Positions 56,609 to 61,908 of a stretch of 64,000 nucleotides of DNA are shown here, one piece after another. The first letter of the stretch is position 1. Every line of letters begins with the position of its first letter. The position numbers and the translations under genes are program-made. Source of the DNA: Planotetraspora mira (GTDB taxonomy: Bacteria; Actinomycetota; Actinomycetes; Streptosporangiales; Streptosporangiaceae); NCBI RefSeq assembly GCF_016863275.1, contig NZ_BOOO01000014.1:1-64000 (forward strand), in the 5' to 3' direction. The notes beneath the pieces are model-generated. The model was given only the letters and a program-made list of their open reading frames with translations, was not told the DNA's origin and searched no databases.

Positions 56609-58603
56609 CTAGCCGCCGTGCGCCCCGTGGAACGGCGTGGTGACCCCTTCGTACGCCAGGTGCAGGGCCATGCCCTGGTCGGCGTGGACGAGGTTGTGGC
56701 AGTGGTTCATCCACAGGCCGGGGTTGGTGGCGCGGAAGGCGACCTCCCACACCTCGCCGGGCTGCAGGTCGAAGGTGTCCAGCCACAAGGGGCTGCCGGT
56801 CGGTGCCCGCCCGTCGCGGGAGAGCACCAGGACACGATGACCGTGCAGGTGCCACGGGTGGATGTCGCGGCTCCGGTTGACCACGGTGAGGCGGACGAGA
56901 TCGCCGGTCGACACGACCTCGGTCGGGATCGAGGGGAACGCGTGCCCGTTGACCGTGTACGCGTACATCGGCCGCCCACCGGCCAGGGAGAGGCCGCGGT
57001 CGAGCACGAGGGTGAACCGGCGGTCGAACGTGTCCGCCGCGGTTATCGGCGTCGTGGCGGGCGTGCCGTACGTGGTGAGATCCAGGTCGGGCCAGCCGGT
57101 CGTGTCCTCTTTCGCGTCCTCAGTCGCACTGGCCGTCGCGTTGGCCGCCGTGCCGGCTGTCGCGCTGGCTGTCGTCGACGTCGCGGCGGCCTGCCGCGTG
57201 AGCCGTACGGACGGGGTTCGGTCGTCGGTGTTCAGCACGACGTCACGGGCGGCGGGCATGACGAAGGTCAGGTCGTACCGGCCGCCGGCGGGCAGGCGCA
57301 GGCCCATCCGGTCGAGTTCGCCCGGGCCGTTCAGGTCGGTGCCGTCGACGGCGACGAGCCGGTACGGCGTTCCGGTGAGGGTGAACCGGTGCGGGGTGTT
57401 GTCGGTGTTGATGAGGCGCAGCCGTACCGGTGTTCCAGGAGCGACGCGCTGGTCGAGCGGCTGGTCGTGGTCGCCGAAGACCGTCCGGCCCGCGAACGTG
57501 TGGACGGGGAGGGTCAGATCGACGCCCGCCGAGGGTGGGCCGACGACCAGCGTGCCGTACAGGCCCATCCTGACGCCGAGGTCGGAGACCTCATGGGTGT
57601 GGTACCAGAAGGTCCCCTGCCGGTCGGCGAGGAACCGGTAGACGAACTCCTGCCCGGGGAGGACCGCTTCCTGGGTGAGCCCCGGCACGCCGTCCTCACC
57701 AGCCGGTACGTCGTAGCCGTGCCAGTGCAACGTCACCCCCGACCGGATGTTCGCGTTGCGCAGCCGCACCTCGACGAGATCGCCCACGTTCGCCGTGATC
57801 GGCGGGCCGGGGACCTGACCGTTGAAGGTCCACGCGTCGACCTTCCGCCCGGACGACAGGGTGATGGCGGCGGTCTCCGCGGAGAGCGTGTAGCGGCGGA
57901 CGACGCCGCCCGCCGCGGGTGTGGCCGGCCCTCGTAACGAGGTCACCGGCCGGCCCTGCGGTTTCGCCGGGGAGCCGGCGGCCATCGCGAGATGACCCAT
58001 GCCACTGTGGCTCAGGGTGTGGTCGAGGCCGTCGTCCATCGCCGGGGAGGGGAAGAAGGCGAGCCCCGTACCCGCCAGGCCAGTCACGAGCGTGATCGCG
58101 ATGACGATCCGCGGCGATCGGCCGGGACCCGCGACGATCCGCCAGGTGACCAGCATGGCGACGGCGACGACGGCCACGGTGACGAGGGCGGTGCTCAAGG
58201 TCGCGGGGTAGCCCATCAGCAACGTGACGGCCAGACCGCCTGCCGCCGCGTATCCCGCGCCCAGCAGCGCCACGACGACGGCGGGCGATCCGGCGGCGCC
58301 GGCATCCGCCTGGGAACGGGCCGCCCTGACCAACGGGGGAGCGGCCAGTGCGGTCGCGGCCACCCCGGTGACCAGGAGCAGCGGCAGGGCGACCGTGACC
58401 TTCTCCTGGACGAACCACCAGCCGGCGCCGGCGAGCCCGCCCACGACGCCCGCACGGGCGAGCGAGGCGAGCACCGCCGCCGCGAGGAGGGCGAGCGCCG
58501 TCCTCGGGCGACGGGACGCGGCCGCCACGCCGGCTCCCAGCCACGTCGCCGCGGCCAGAACCGCGGCGAGCAGGTCGAGCGTCATGAGCAGAGCGGTGGT
58601 CAT
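56609..58603 (-). CDS. Membrane-anchored multicopper oxidase
   Basis: A 664-residue protein with two parts. The first 185 residues hold five or six spans. A linker follows, containing a His/Asp/Met patch (MDDGLDHTLSHSGMGHLAMAA), then a cupredoxin-type oxidase. Type 2/3 copper motifs are HWHGYD and WYHTHE; HPWHLHGH and HCHNLVHADQGM (634-645) give the type 1 centre with Cys635, His640 and Met645. A low-complexity Ala/Thr linker splits the oxidase domains. It may oxidise copper(I), phenols or metals outside the cell. ATG 58603 overlaps the preceding gene stop (ATGA), so the two are coupled. Confidence 0.88.
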   Translation of the reverse strand: MTTALLMTLDLLAAVLAAATWLGAGVAAASRRPRTALALLAAAVLASLARAGVVGGLAGAGWWFVQEKVTVALPLLLVTGVAATALAAPPLVRAARSQADAGAAGSPAVVVALLGAGYAAAGGLAVTLLMGYPATLSTALVTVAVVAVAMLVTWRIVAGPGRSPRIVIAITLVTGLAGTGLAFFPSPAMDDGLDHTLSHSGMGHLAMAAGSPAKPQGRPVTSLRGPATPAAGGVVRRYTLSAETAAITLSSGRKVDAWTFNGQVPGPPITANVGDLVEVRLRNANIRSGVTLHWHGYDVPAGEDGVPGLTQEAVLPGQEFVYRFLADRQGTFWYHTHEVSDLGVRMGLYGTLVVGPPSAGVDLTLPVHTFAGRTVFGDHDQPLDQRVAPGTPVRLRLINTDNTPHRFTLTGTPYRLVAVDGTDLNGPGELDRMGLRLPAGGRYDLTFVMPAARDVVLNTDDRTPSVRLTRQAAATSTTASATAGTAANATASATEDAKEDTTGWPDLDLTTYGTPATTPITAADTFDRRFTLVLDRGLSLAGGRPMYAYTVNGHAFPSIPTEVVSTGDLVRLTVVNRSRDIHPWHLHGHRVLVLSRDGRAPTGSPLWLDTFDLQPGEVWEVAFRATNPGLWMNHCHNLVHADQGMALHLAYEGVTTPFHGAHGG

Positions 58604-59046
58604 GAGGCGTGCGCCGCCGTGTTCCGCGTGTCGCCCGCAGCCGTGCCCATGGCGAGTCGTCGTGCCTGGCGGAACACCATGGCCGAGACCGCCGCGATCG
58701 CCATTCCGTTGATCGCGTGCAGTCCGAGGACCGCGAGTGAGGCAGGGGTGGTGTTGCCCGAGCTGTCGTTCAGGGCGTTCCCGAGCGCGATGATCAAGAC
58801 CTGCACGATGATCAGCCCGAGCGGGAGGATGGTGAGCCCGATCGTACGGCCGGGCGCCTTGGAGAGTGCCGCGGCCACGGTGGCCAGCAGCGAGAGGATC
58901 GGAATGATCATCATGCCGTTCATGCTGTGCAGTGCGAACGAGTCGTCCTCCTGCGGCTTGTCGAACGCGCCGACGGCCGCGAGGTACCACTGCACCATGA
59001 CGGCGGCCAGCATCAGGCCGGCCAGGCCGAGATAGACCTTGCGCAA
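58600..59046 (-). CDS. DUF6220-like membrane protein, partner of the oxidase
   Basis: A 148-residue protein with four spans (about 5-24, 43-63, 68-90 and 105-125). HSMNGMM and LHAINGMAI are a repeated motif with His and Asn in helices, which could bind metal or heme. This pattern resembles DUF6220. The start is TTG 59046, supported by GAAGGGAG six bases upstream. It is the first gene of a two-gene operon with the oxidase; both probably work on copper or redox at the membrane. Confidence 0.75.
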   Translation of the reverse strand: MRKVYLGLAGLMLAAVMVQWYLAAVGAFDKPQEDDSFALHSMNGMMIIPILSLLATVAAALSKAPGRTIGLTILPLGLIIVQVLIIALGNALNDSSGNTTPASLAVLGLHAINGMAIAAVSAMVFRQARRLAMGTAAGDTRNTAAHAS

Positions 59047-59164
59047 GGCGTGCTCCCTTCAACGTGGACCAACAGTGGCGATGGTGTCCCGGCATGGGTC
59101 GCCCCGTCGTCCGCCGCCCGGCGACACATCGCCTACTGCCCAAGGAGTACGCCCTCCCCCTCGG

Positions 59165-59183
59165 CTACTACCCCTCCAGTAGT
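59165..59183 (-). promoter_or_regulatory. ACTAC-N7-GTAGT dyad upstream of the oxidase operon
   Basis: ACTAC (59167-59171) and GTAGT (59179-59183) are inverted repeats, with a second shifted pair CTACT/AGTAG. They lie about 120 bases before the operon start. The half-site resembles BlaI/CopY-type boxes (TACTAC), which would suit copper or cell-wall regulation; this match is suggestive only. Confidence 0.35.
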
Positions 59184-59202
59184 CCCCCTCCTCTCAGCTG
59201 GC

Positions 59203-59678
59203 CGTGATCATGCACAGGTTCGTGATCACGCCCCCTGACCGGCCACGACCCCGAGCGTGATCATGCACAGGCTCGCCGGCGCGGTGCCTGAGCAGCGGAA
59301 ACGTATGCCGTGATCATGCGCAGGTTCGGGAATGTGCCGTGTGACCTGCGTAAACATCGTCCGTGATCATGCATTTGGGAAGGCGGCTGCCGGACGCGAA
59401 CGACATGCGCTCTTCCGGGGCCGCGGTTGAAATCGCGGTCGGGGTCGCAGGTTGTGCATGATCACGGACGATGTTCGTCCAGGTGGTGCCGTAGACAGCC
59501 GAACATGCGCATGATCACGAATGGTGTTCGCGCAGGTCGTGCCGTACGTGACCGAACTTGTGCATGATCACGCCGGAGGTCTGGGCAGGTCAGGGCGTGT
59601 ACGGCCGAACCTGTGCATGATCACGCGGAAGGTTTGGGCTGGCCGGGGGGTGTGATCACGAACTTGTGCATGATCACG
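59203..59678. repeat. 53-bp-periodic inverted array of a 20-bp box
   Basis: The box CGTGATCATGCACAGGTTCG or close variants starts at 59203, 59256, 59309 and (degenerate) 59362. The inverse box ends at 59466, 59519, 59572, 59625 and 59678. Every step is exactly 53 bp, five helical turns. The 33-bp stretches between boxes are not random: they share GCAGGTC-like cores and mirror each other about 59440.5. For example, the stretch at 59223-59255 matches 59626-59658 inverted. There is no coding potential. The centre (59374-59451) has no box at the expected position 59415. It lies between the oxidase operon promoter and the end of the STAS gene. Confidence 0.95.
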
Positions 59679-59727
59679 CGGGGGGGTGGGGGTTCTGGGT
59701 GGGGGGGCTTGAGCTTGAGCTTGATCC

Positions 59728-60084
59728 TTAGCTTGATCCGGAGGTTGACGCTGAGGCCAGGGCTTCGTCGAGGGTGGGGTAGATGGGGAGGCGGCCGGTG
59801 AGGCCGAGTATGTGGAACAGGCGCCGGATGTTGGGCAGCAGGCCGCAGACGGCCACCCGGTCGCCTCGCCCGAGCCGGCCGTACGCGTCGAGGATGACGC
59901 GGAGTCCCGCGCTGTCGAGGAAGCGGAGATCGGTGAGATCGAACAGCAGTCGCACCGCTGGCCGGTCGAGGAGTTCGTCCACCTGGGCGCGGAACGCGGG
60001 CTCGGTGATGATGTCGATCTCCCCGCTGACGGAGACGACCGTGAACGGCGGGTGCGTCTCAACGGTCACGCGGAAGTCGCTCAT
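59728..60084 (-). CDS. STAS-domain anti-anti-sigma factor
   Basis: A 118-residue STAS protein. The core is VVSVSGEIDIITEPAFRAQVDELLD, with the phosphorylatable serine in DLRFLDSAGLRVIL. Such proteins are dephosphorylated under stress and bind anti-sigma kinases, freeing SigB/SigF-type factors. No anti-sigma kinase or sigma gene is adjacent. ATG 60084 is preferred: GGAG lies six bases upstream. ATG 60090 overlaps that box. The gene is monocistronic. Confidence 0.9.
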   Translation of the reverse strand: MSDFRVTVETHPPFTVVSVSGEIDIITEPAFRAQVDELLDRPAVRLLFDLTDLRFLDSAGLRVILDAYGRLGRGDRVAVCGLLPNIRRLFHILGLTGRLPIYPTLDEALASASTSGSS

Positions 60085-60489
60085 ATCCATCTCCGCAAAC
60101 AGGCAGGAAGTCAGGCGGTGCGTCGTACGTAGTAGCGACCACATCCAGATCACAGGCGATCAACGTAAGAGGGGGACGACGGAGTGTCTCGGTCTCCACT
60201 CCAAATTGGAACTGTTCTTTTACTTGAATGAATCCAGTTAATTGTTAGAATTGCTGCGTACCCGTTGACTTGTGTCCGGGATTCGAGCAGGTGACGCATC
60301 GCCTGGCGTCTGCACCGGGCCGGCGCGAAGGCGGCCTGGAGCCGCGAACACTCGCAGGCGGACCTGGGTCCCGCGTCACGGGTGCGGCGAGGTCATGAAC
60401 ATCGACGGCCGTCGGCATCAGTAAGTCCCTCCCCGTGAAGCCGGATAAAAGAAGATCGCATACAGTATACGGAATACCAAGGAGGAAGT
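60085..60489. other. Intergenic region, AT-rich in part, no gene seen
   Basis: About 400 bases between divergent genes. From 60190 to 60260 the sequence is far less GC-rich than anything nearby (TACTTGAATGAATCCAGTTAATTG), as is usual for promoters or a scar of transfer. It includes a TCCAAATTGGA palindrome (60200-60210). Near the histidine kinase start, ACAGTATACGGAATACC (60462-60478) could include a -10 element. A 102-codon minus-strand frame (60245-60553) overlaps the kinase start and has no ribosome site or similarity; I do not call it. Confidence 0.5.
60200..60210. promoter_or_regulatory. TCCAAATTGGA palindrome
   Basis: An 11-bp perfect dyad in the AT-rich part of the region before the STAS gene. 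It may be an operator or promoter element; no regulator is assigned. Confidence 0.3.
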
Positions 60490-61908
60490 GTGGTGCGCGG
60501 AAGGTCCAGATCAATGGCGGGTATACGAGGCCGTCTGGCCCGTATGCGGCCACGGTCCATCCGCGGCCGCATCACCGCCCTGGTCACGCTTCTCGCCGTC
60601 CTCCTGCTCATACCGACCGCGCTCGCCGAGGGCGCCGTGGGACGGCAGGCGGTCACGGACGACATCTGGCTGTCGGCCCGGCGCCAGGCCGACCTCACCG
60701 CAGCGGCCGTACGCCTCGGGCGGCTGTCCCAGCCTGTGCGGCCGGCGGTCGGGGGCGTCGGCCTCATCCAGGTCGTGAATCCGGGCCATCAGGTCGTCGA
60801 CGCGTCCCGGCGCGCTCGTGGCCTGCCGGCCCTGAGCCAGGTGTGGCCGACCCCGATCAACCCCGAGCGGGACGTGGAGACCTGTACGTCGGCGGCTCAC
60901 CTGGGCTGCATCCGGCTCGCCGCTCTCCGCGTCGACCCTGAGGCGGACTCGCCGGTGGTCTACGCGGGCAGGCCGGCGGCGAGCCTGAACTCGACCGAGG
61001 TGTTCGGCCGGTTCTTCGGCCTCCAGGACGGCCTGCTGATCATCCTGGCCGCCTGGGCGACCTGGGTGATCACGGGACGCACGCTCAAGCCGGTGAAAGC
61101 CATCAGCGCCGACCTCTCCGCCATCAACGGCAACGACTTGAGCACCAGGGTGCCCGAGTGGGCCGGCCAGGACGAGATCGCCCGGCTGGCGCGGACCGTG
61201 AACGGCACGCTGGGCCGGATCGAGGACGCCAAACGGGTCACCGACCAGGCGCTCGGCCGGCAGCGCCAGTTCGTCGCCGACGCGTCGCACGAGCTGCGGA
61301 CCCCCCTTGCGGGTCTTCGCGCCGAGTTGGAGGAGGCCCGACTCCACCCCGCGGAGACCGATCTGCCTGATCTGCTCGACCACACGCTGTACGACGTGGA
61401 CAGGCTGGAATCGATCACCACCGATCTGCTCCTGCTGGTCCGGGTCGGGGCGGAAGGGGACGCCGAGCGGACCCGGGTGGACCTGTCGGAACTCGTCGAG
61501 CGCGAGGTCGTCCGGCGGATCGACCGGCTGCCCGTCCGCCTGCACGTCGAGCCGGGGGTGACCGTGCACGCGGCCCTTCCTCAGATCGTCCGCGTGCTCA
61601 TGAACCTGGTCGACAACGCCCAGCGGCACGCACGGCATGCCGTTGAGGTCTATCTGCGGCGTGGCGTCGGCTACGTCGAGCTCTCCGTGACCGACGACGG
61701 GCCGGGAATCGGGGCGGACGACCGTGAGCGGATTTTCGAGCGGTTCACCCGGCTGGACACCGCGCGGAGCCGGAACCACGGCGGCACCGGCCTCGGGCTG
61801 GCGATCGCGCGCGACATCGCCCACGCTCACGGCGGCACGCTGGTGGCGGCCGAGTCGCCGGGGGGCGGCGCCAGGTTCGTCTTCAGGATTCCCGTCTGCG
61901 ACGACTAG
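60490..61908 (+). CDS. Sensor histidine kinase, orphan
   Basis: A 472-residue kinase: span at about 29-48, outer loop 49-178 with Cys132 and Cys140 likely to pair, span at 179-196, HAMP to about 250, and H267 in VADASHELRTPLAG. ATPase boxes are NLVDNAQ, DDGPGIG, FERFTR and GTGLGLAIA. Start codons GTG 60490 and 60493 are both possible; AAGGAGG is upstream and fits 60493 slightly better. No response regulator gene adjoins it, so its partner is elsewhere. It converges on another kinase, with overlapping stop codons. Confidence 0.88.
   Translation: MVRGRSRSMAGIRGRLARMRPRSIRGRITALVTLLAVLLLIPTALAEGAVGRQAVTDDIWLSARRQADLTAAAVRLGRLSQPVRPAVGGVGLIQVVNPGHQVVDASRRARGLPALSQVWPTPINPERDVETCTSAAHLGCIRLAALRVDPEADSPVVYAGRPAASLNSTEVFGRFFGLQDGLLIILAAWATWVITGRTLKPVKAISADLSAINGNDLSTRVPEWAGQDEIARLARTVNGTLGRIEDAKRVTDQALGRQRQFVADASHELRTPLAGLRAELEEARLHPAETDLPDLLDHTLYDVDRLESITTDLLLLVRVGAEGDAERTRVDLSELVEREVVRRIDRLPVRLHVEPGVTVHAALPQIVRVLMNLVDNAQRHARHAVEVYLRRGVGYVELSVTDDGPGIGADDRERIFERFTRLDTARSRNHGGTGLGLAIARDIAHAHGGTLVAAESPGGGARFVFRIPVCDD

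Follow-up and report, generated by a model that had tools for sequence, protein, structure and literature searches.

What kind of element is the array of short boxes, repeated every 53 bp and mirrored about its centre, that lies beside a STAS-domain gene of Planotetraspora mira? The array occupies positions 59203-59678 of the analysed stretch of 64,000 nucleotides (hereafter the window). An initial annotation had described it as nine 20-bp boxes at a 53-bp step, four in one orientation and five inverted. Place and step were confirmed: seven full boxes were matched (at most 3 mismatches) against 0.00 expected from 100 shuffles, with starts at 59203, 59256 and 59309 on the + strand and at 59500, 59553, 59606 and 59659 on the - strand. 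The two other boxes of the earlier count, at 59362-59373 and 59455-59466, proved to be shortened 12-bp forms, CGTGATCATGCA, with which each arm ends. The array consists of three forward units and a half box, an 81-nt loop, and a half box followed by four reverse units, with the following features.

59173 to 59202, + strand: pyrimidine- and C-rich, G-poor leader ahead of the forward arm (from the sequence; a general feature of arms in this genome)
59203 to 59255, + strand: forward unit 1, a 20-bp box (59203-59222) plus a 33-bp spacer (box match)
59256 to 59308, + strand: forward unit 2 (box match)
59309 to 59361, + strand: forward unit 3 (box match)
59362 to 59373, + strand: truncated terminal box of the forward arm (half-box position)
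59374 to 59454, no strand: 81-nt loop separating both arms (from the arm-pair layout)
59455 to 59466, - strand: truncated terminal box of the reverse arm (half-box position)
59467 to 59519, - strand: reverse unit 4, box 59500-59519 (box match)
59520 to 59572, - strand: reverse unit 3, box 59553-59572 (box match)
59573 to 59625, - strand: reverse unit 2, box 59606-59625 (box match)
59626 to 59678, - strand: reverse unit 1, box 59659-59678, closest to the STAS gene (box match)
59679 to 59708, - strand: C-rich, G-poor leader ahead of the reverse arm in - strand reading (from the sequence; a general feature of arms in this genome)
59728 to 60153, - strand: STAS-domain gene, 3' end towards the reverse arm (open reading frame; Pfam STAS)
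58600 to 59046, - strand: DUF6220 gene on the other side, directed away from the array (open reading frame; Pfam DUF6220)

The stop codon of the STAS gene, whose start codon is uncertain, lies 49 nt from the first box of the reverse arm; the forward arm has no called gene behind it in its own direction. At the orthologous loci of three congeneric genomes, 6 (G004), 8 (G003) and 1 (G002) boxes were detected. Comparison of positions 58500-60500 of the window with Rfam 15 gave two matches up to E 1, the best of which scored 17.6 bits, below its cut-off of 380.

The repeat unit is 53 bp long and not palindromic, and carries the conserved elements CGTGATCATGC, TTCG and GACCWGC. Box detection made no use of the step. 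Counting same-strand neighbours up to 120 bp apart in the P. mira genome, 154 of 157 steps measured exactly 53 and 2 measured 52, unlike the singly scattered boxes without a step that the initial annotation had named as its refuting case. Addition of 58 sibling loci gave 373 steps of 53, 12 of 52 and 4 of 54 among 393, but each of these loci had been selected by one or two perfect 53-bp pairs, and the P. mira count is therefore the fair figure. Of 172 arms from P. mira and the sibling loci, 136 had a half box exactly 53 bp past their final full box (53 of 67 in P. mira).

Agreement between units reached 91% in the box and only 46% in the spacer, where the conserved positions were above all 33-41. 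Across 48 orthologous unit pairs, the chosen conserved positions differed in 3% of comparisons and the remaining positions in 15%. Because the detection rule favours box positions, the block 35-41 (the GACCWGC region), which plays no part in detection, provides a cleaner test; it showed 16 differences in 336 comparisons versus 197 in 1248 for the rest of the spacer (p 1.4e-8; counts rebuilt from rounded fractions). A CRISPR has unrelated spacers between identical repeats; here the parts between boxes share GACCWGC, so that the array is not a CRISPR, as had been concluded earlier. The 25 strongest covarying position pairs all lie at most 3 positions apart, and thus there is no sign of paired RNA within the unit, in which no pairing signal was found. 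Conservation within the unit had no significant 10.6-bp periodicity (p 0.23 and 0.47), and helical phasing is therefore argued from the step alone. The near-constant step fits a DNA-bound nucleoprotein complex, as the initial annotation had proposed, and makes its placement of all boxes on one face of the DNA plausible.

A search of the P. mira genome (9.03 Mb, 100 contigs) with at most 2 mismatches returned 426 forward and 451 reverse boxes, whereas the reversed pattern as control returned 6 and 2 (877 versus 8 boxes). The box is accordingly a dispersed genomic repeat, which was among the possibilities first listed. In 1.664 Mb of P. mira sequence, tiled from box-positive contigs and thus not a random sample, 42 arrays were found, which extrapolates to roughly 200-230 per genome. 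These arrays lie at many other genes, which speaks against the regulator platform specific to the oxidase operon that had been considered for the window. Their spacing along the genome is irregular (36 gaps, mean 34.8 kb, CV 1.12). The longest array-free stretch in the tiles covers about 170 kb (contig C4, about 253-426 kb) and holds no called gene longer than 4.5 kb; it could be recently acquired DNA.

Among other genomes the family is narrowly distributed. In a scan of 60 genomes, the five of the genus held 188-648 boxes each and the other 55 held 0-21, so that all five Planotetraspora genomes were positive in the wider box search that had been proposed. A double-box pattern searched in GTDB contigs matched 58 stretches from three named species only, all Planotetraspora. 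Two boxes one step apart were found in 19 of 345 genomes of the order: 149-744 matches in each of the five congeners, 532 in a genome of another genus (G105), 1-13 in four genomes of a third genus and 1-2 isolated matches in nine genomes. With a relaxed pattern, arrays were detected in 5 of 15 genomes of the third genus, that of G120 (2-208 matches); this patchy presence suits the finding of a gene that accompanies arrays. Searching by the second block added a fourth genus, with 45 matches in G243 and 9 in G242. In a class-wide scan of 394 genomes, those outside the family Streptosporangiaceae had 0-2 matches each, many of which were one recurring sequence resembling part of a conserved gene.

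Each lineage has its own box type: CGTGATCATGCACAGGTTCGG in most Planotetraspora, CGTGATCATGCAGAASTTCGG in the congener G001, CGTGATCATGCACAGRTTCCCG in G105, CGTGATCTTGCAGTTTGTCGC in G120 and CGTGATCTTGCggatNCTCGCA in G243 and G242, with lower-case letters marking weak positions. Common to all types are CGTGATCWTG, a block near GACCWGC and a step of about 53. The step equals 53 in 12 of 12 cases in G001, in 4 of 7 in G120 and in 43 of 48 in G243 and G242 (a count that includes some overlapping loci twice). Of 40 steps of 51-54 counted in G105, 28 are 53 and 10 are 52; the step is thus held more strictly in P. mira than elsewhere.

In order to follow the history of the arrays, orthologous sites were compared. 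Of 21 sibling loci that matched P. mira tiles, L049 was excluded since the match did not span its arrays, and L072 since its site lay at a tile end. The P. mira site held an array for all 19 loci examined (18 distinct sites, as L031 and L078 map to one array); the sibling loci had been selected for carrying arrays, the P. mira side had not. Many orthologous arrays differ by one or two units, and a minimal one-unit version stands at some sites in G002. One array of G003 is missing in G002 and G004, where a terminator-like stem can be seen by eye, and the P. mira genome is without one array that G001 has. Since orthologous sites are shared, with gains and losses at others, the arrays appear to be mostly old and vertically inherited, with gains, losses and turnover of units. 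Orthologous arrays with unequal unit numbers offer a natural experiment for transcript mapping. In one orthologous gap (L248 and contig C2 of G001), two species carry arrays on opposite strands.

The main rival to any host function is an interspersed repeat of the MIRU or REP type, selfish or neutral, which is tolerated in gene 3' ends, changes its unit number by slippage between boxes and does nothing for the host. The unequal unit numbers of many orthologous arrays, the gains or losses of whole arrays and the lineage-specific box types, which resemble repeat subfamilies, would fit such a repeat. Less easily explained by it are the arrays common to species at 19 of 19 examined loci, the GACCWGC block kept in orthologous copies while the remaining spacer drifts, and a step held though the spacers are near random. 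Moreover, the RAYT-type transposase Y1_Tnp (PF01797, the REP transposase family) was found in only one of the five genus genomes, G001, and thus not in P. mira. Plasmid, phage and viral relatives were not found: the searches gave one Aeromonas match (E 0.5), none in phage, and two IMG/VR matches that are other repeats. Altogether we regard a selfish or neutral repeat as somewhat unlikely; even if it were correct, a repeat whose step is held despite near-random spacers would be unusual. On one IMG/VR contig (L254, 3388-3578), unrelated and apparently coding 18-bp repeats containing GTGATCATGC were observed.

The position of the arrays relative to genes was assessed with stop codons and gaps from a simple, purpose-made, retrained gene caller, leaving out edge arrays (5 single, 9 inverted) and one-box matches. 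Single-arm arrays stood at a gene 3' end and ran in the same direction as the gene in 36 of 46 cases; the other 10 had no called gene behind them in their own direction. In 14 of the 36 the TGA stop codon lay within the first box, which looks like insertion into the end of the gene and is a point in favour of the selfish repeat. Inverted arrays favoured convergent genes: 24 lay between convergent, 22 between co-directional and 5 between divergent genes, and in 27 of these 51 at least one arm had no called gene behind it that ran the same way. In P. mira alone the inverted arrays were in 9 convergent, 11 co-directional and 2 divergent gaps, compared with 148, 497 and 268 gaps of at least 50 bp in this genome. 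When arrays of any kind were counted over gaps of at least 40 bp, leaving out array-free gaps above 700 bp, they were present in 15 of the 150 gaps between convergent genes, 24 of the 501 between co-directional genes and 3 of the 258 between divergent ones (p 0.002 and 0.001). Neighbouring arms on opposite strands were ordered + then - in 57 of 57 pairs. As only 42 of 909 gaps carry arrays, general termination must be independent of them. Stems beside arrays were neither clearly fewer nor more, in sets whose gap lengths differ, and a strong stem is retained beside one G001 array.

The 30 nt ahead of the first box were rich in C and poor in G in P. mira (65 arms: C 53%, G 18%) compared with control 3' ends (n=791: C 37%, G 34%). 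This leader was present in the 44 arms with a called gene behind them and in the 21 without, and therefore seems to be part of the element itself. In G105 the 9 arms behind a gene showed it (C 52%, G 23%; control 36% and 32%) and the 5 arms without one did not (C 39%, G 28%); in G001 it was weak (4 arms: C 45%, G 29%; control 39% and 32%), and the G120 sample comprised 3 arms only. A rut-like feature, meaning a C-rich, G-poor transcript stretch before the stop zone, is thus found in the P. mira genome and more weakly elsewhere.

The step, the block conservation without distant covariation, the direction, the leader and the shared positions favour phased protein sites at transcript ends. From these observations, made by computation on the sequences, we infer three things: that the reader of the boxes is a protein, that it recognises them in the form of DNA, and that its effect falls on transcription. 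The explanation that we tentatively prefer, at somewhat less than even chances, is that the arrays are phased DNA sites for a putative factor and act as polar transcription terminators or insulators. Each arm would offer a putative lineage-specific factor a polar series of binding sites on double-stranded DNA, one every 53 bp, mostly placed where transcription should end and oriented the way the transcript arrives. The bound array would stall RNA polymerase leaving the gene as a roadblock, the C-rich transcript ahead of it would let a Rho-type factor release the polymerase, and an inverted pair would shut the gap from both sides. The genome-wide box change in G001 described below and the G003 array found where two relatives have a terminator-like stem also count in its favour. 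Weighing against it are the arms that have no called gene behind them (the forward arm of the window among them), the small share of gaps with arrays, the strong stem kept beside a G001 array, the looser step of G105, the missing 10.6-bp period, and a leader that is weak in G001 and absent from G105 arms without a gene. The Sal-box/TTF-I and Reb1 terminators of rDNA, in which repeated, oriented sites follow the gene and a DNA-bound protein stops the polymerase, may work in a similar way; they are eukaryotic, and no homology is claimed.

Multi-site arrays with a nearly fixed step, a genome-wide spread and a lineage-specific code would also be expected of a chromosome-organising site, read by a nucleoid protein, loading condensin or guiding a translocase, that merely avoids coding DNA. 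The random spacing of the arrays (CV 1.12 over 36 gaps) and the orientation that tracks the upstream gene (36 of 46) argue mildly against it, and likewise against the parS- or centromere-like site of the initial annotation; the C-rich leader is not expected from a chromosome-organising site. We consider this role improbable.

The mirror symmetry of the window had raised two further possibilities, an inverted duplication of a tandem array with drift and an RNA hairpin that ends transcription from the STAS gene. The symmetry is real, since the arms of 170 nt are 74% complementary. Most of it, however, arises because the two arms share one type of unit: in 60 inverted arrays, the arms of one array matched at 66% (64% in the other register) versus 61% for unrelated arms. 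Because each arm behaves as a polar array by itself and 51 arrays of at least two boxes are one-armed versus 60 inverted, an inverted duplication is improbable as the main history. A transcribed RNA element, whose two arms would pair into a long hairpin and so end the transcript or protect it, agrees with the strong folding of the window array (-309 and -266 kcal/mol for the two strands, z about -15, against shuffles that lose the inverted layout) and with the better folding of the sense strand in 15 of 22 co-directional arrays. The many one-armed arrays, the small extra pairing of cognate arms and the lack of distant covariation within units all speak against such a hairpin, as does the window itself, where the strand that folds better is the antisense strand of both flanking genes. 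G-U pairs were nearly balanced over the 22 co-directional arrays (202 sense versus 179 antisense), so that a sense-strand G-U bias, striking in the window, was not upheld. We judge a hairpin element to be very improbable. At four other arrays (P. mira C2:206367 and C8:79535, L042 and L051) arm mismatches are strongly skewed to one G-U sense (for example 5 versus 20, or 2 versus 17); such skew occurs also between convergent genes, where there is no defined sense strand.

The box type of G001 differs from that of its congeners throughout the genome. G001 contains 638 exact CAGAAS boxes and its four congeners a single one apiece, whereas exact CACARR boxes occur 3 times in G001 and 297, 221, 63 and 294 times in the congeners. 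Four G001 array sites, with flanks 83-91% identical, were compared with P. mira, which holds an array at three of them. At one G001/P. mira site the spacers and the unique end align and both boxes differ; judged from this alignment, the boxes there clearly changed in place. At another such site the arrays lie on opposite strands, so that an array may also have been gained anew at a favoured position. A shift at hundreds of scattered sites agrees with their having co-evolved with a trans-acting factor; alternatively, a new repeat type may have spread. That the arrays form a dedicated gene-end punctuation, with polar phased arrays, a putative lineage-specific reader and a recognition code rewritten at hundreds of sites in one species, is an extended version of the preferred explanation, and this extension we hold to be unlikely.

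The single CAGAAG box of the P. mira, G002 and G004 genomes lies within an array whose end is some 200 bp upstream of a Rho-like gene; in G003 the single box lies in a different array. In P. mira the gene (region C59:5965-7152; L289 with L294) encodes 395 amino acids, and an inverted array is found within 0.4 kb after it. The protein scored 483.7 bits against the NCBIfam model 'Rho, short form' (NF041509; cut-off 628) and 468.2 bits against TIGR00767 Rho (cut-off 509), but passed the Rho model NF006886 (458.3; cut-off 315), and its RNA-binding domain scored 34.6 bits in Pfam (cut-off 27). Since it falls below two Rho cut-offs and passes the third, the protein is classified by its sequence as a diverged Rho. 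By proximity alone, this short Rho is a possible reader of the arrays or partner of their reader; as the gene was met by following one odd box, the proximity carries little statistical weight.

Pneumococcal BOX elements are dispersed repeats built of modules, the middle one of which recurs in tandem; the arrays resemble them in being modular and dispersed and differ in sequence, host and step. Classical U-tract terminators are scarce in GC-rich actinomycetes. Should the arrays indeed terminate or insulate transcription, these bacteria would have a new way to separate genes, through a code able to shift genome-wide between sister species, and the question of how a factor and hundreds of its sites can change together would become testable. 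Among the papers listed by searches of open-licence literature, none described this repeat family. It is a kind of interspersed gene-end repeat, with a real chance of being a new kind of transcription boundary.

Among repeats described in the literature, MIRUs are 40-100 bp long and occur at dozens of intergenic loci with isolate-variable copy number (PMC2734929); insertion at start codons, coupling an ORF to the next gene, is also described (PMC12548453). By these descriptions, the arrays are like MIRUs in their tandem intergenic units within this size range and in their variable copy number, and appear to differ from them in that most stand at gene ends (after a stop codon in 36 of 46 single arrays), that many are inverted pairs and that a single step is almost constant. 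REP and BIME sequences are described as high-copy extragenic repeats, frequently opposed in orientation, that lie chiefly past the ends of genes, in gaps between genes that converge or run the same way; REPs are palindromes of 20-40 bp with GTAG or CGTC tags, of which the GTAG ones are tied to RAYT transposases (PMC3733652). The arrays share the location downstream of genes and between convergent genes, whereas their 53-bp, non-palindromic unit lacks the palindrome and tag by which REPs are defined in that account. Finally, the TAACTGA direct repeats of Beggiatoaceae form many short intergenic sets thought to bind a regulator; these heptamers lie just upstream of start codons, and a role in translation has been proposed in the same source (PMC4679880). 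The arrays likewise form many intergenic repeat sets, but of 53-bp units at gene ends instead of heptamers before starts.

Within the family, TTCGTGATCA continues the box of some first units, that at 59219-59230 of the window included, and forms a short inverted repeat with it; this continuation occurs in 8% of first units, 5% of second units and 0-1% of third and fourth units.
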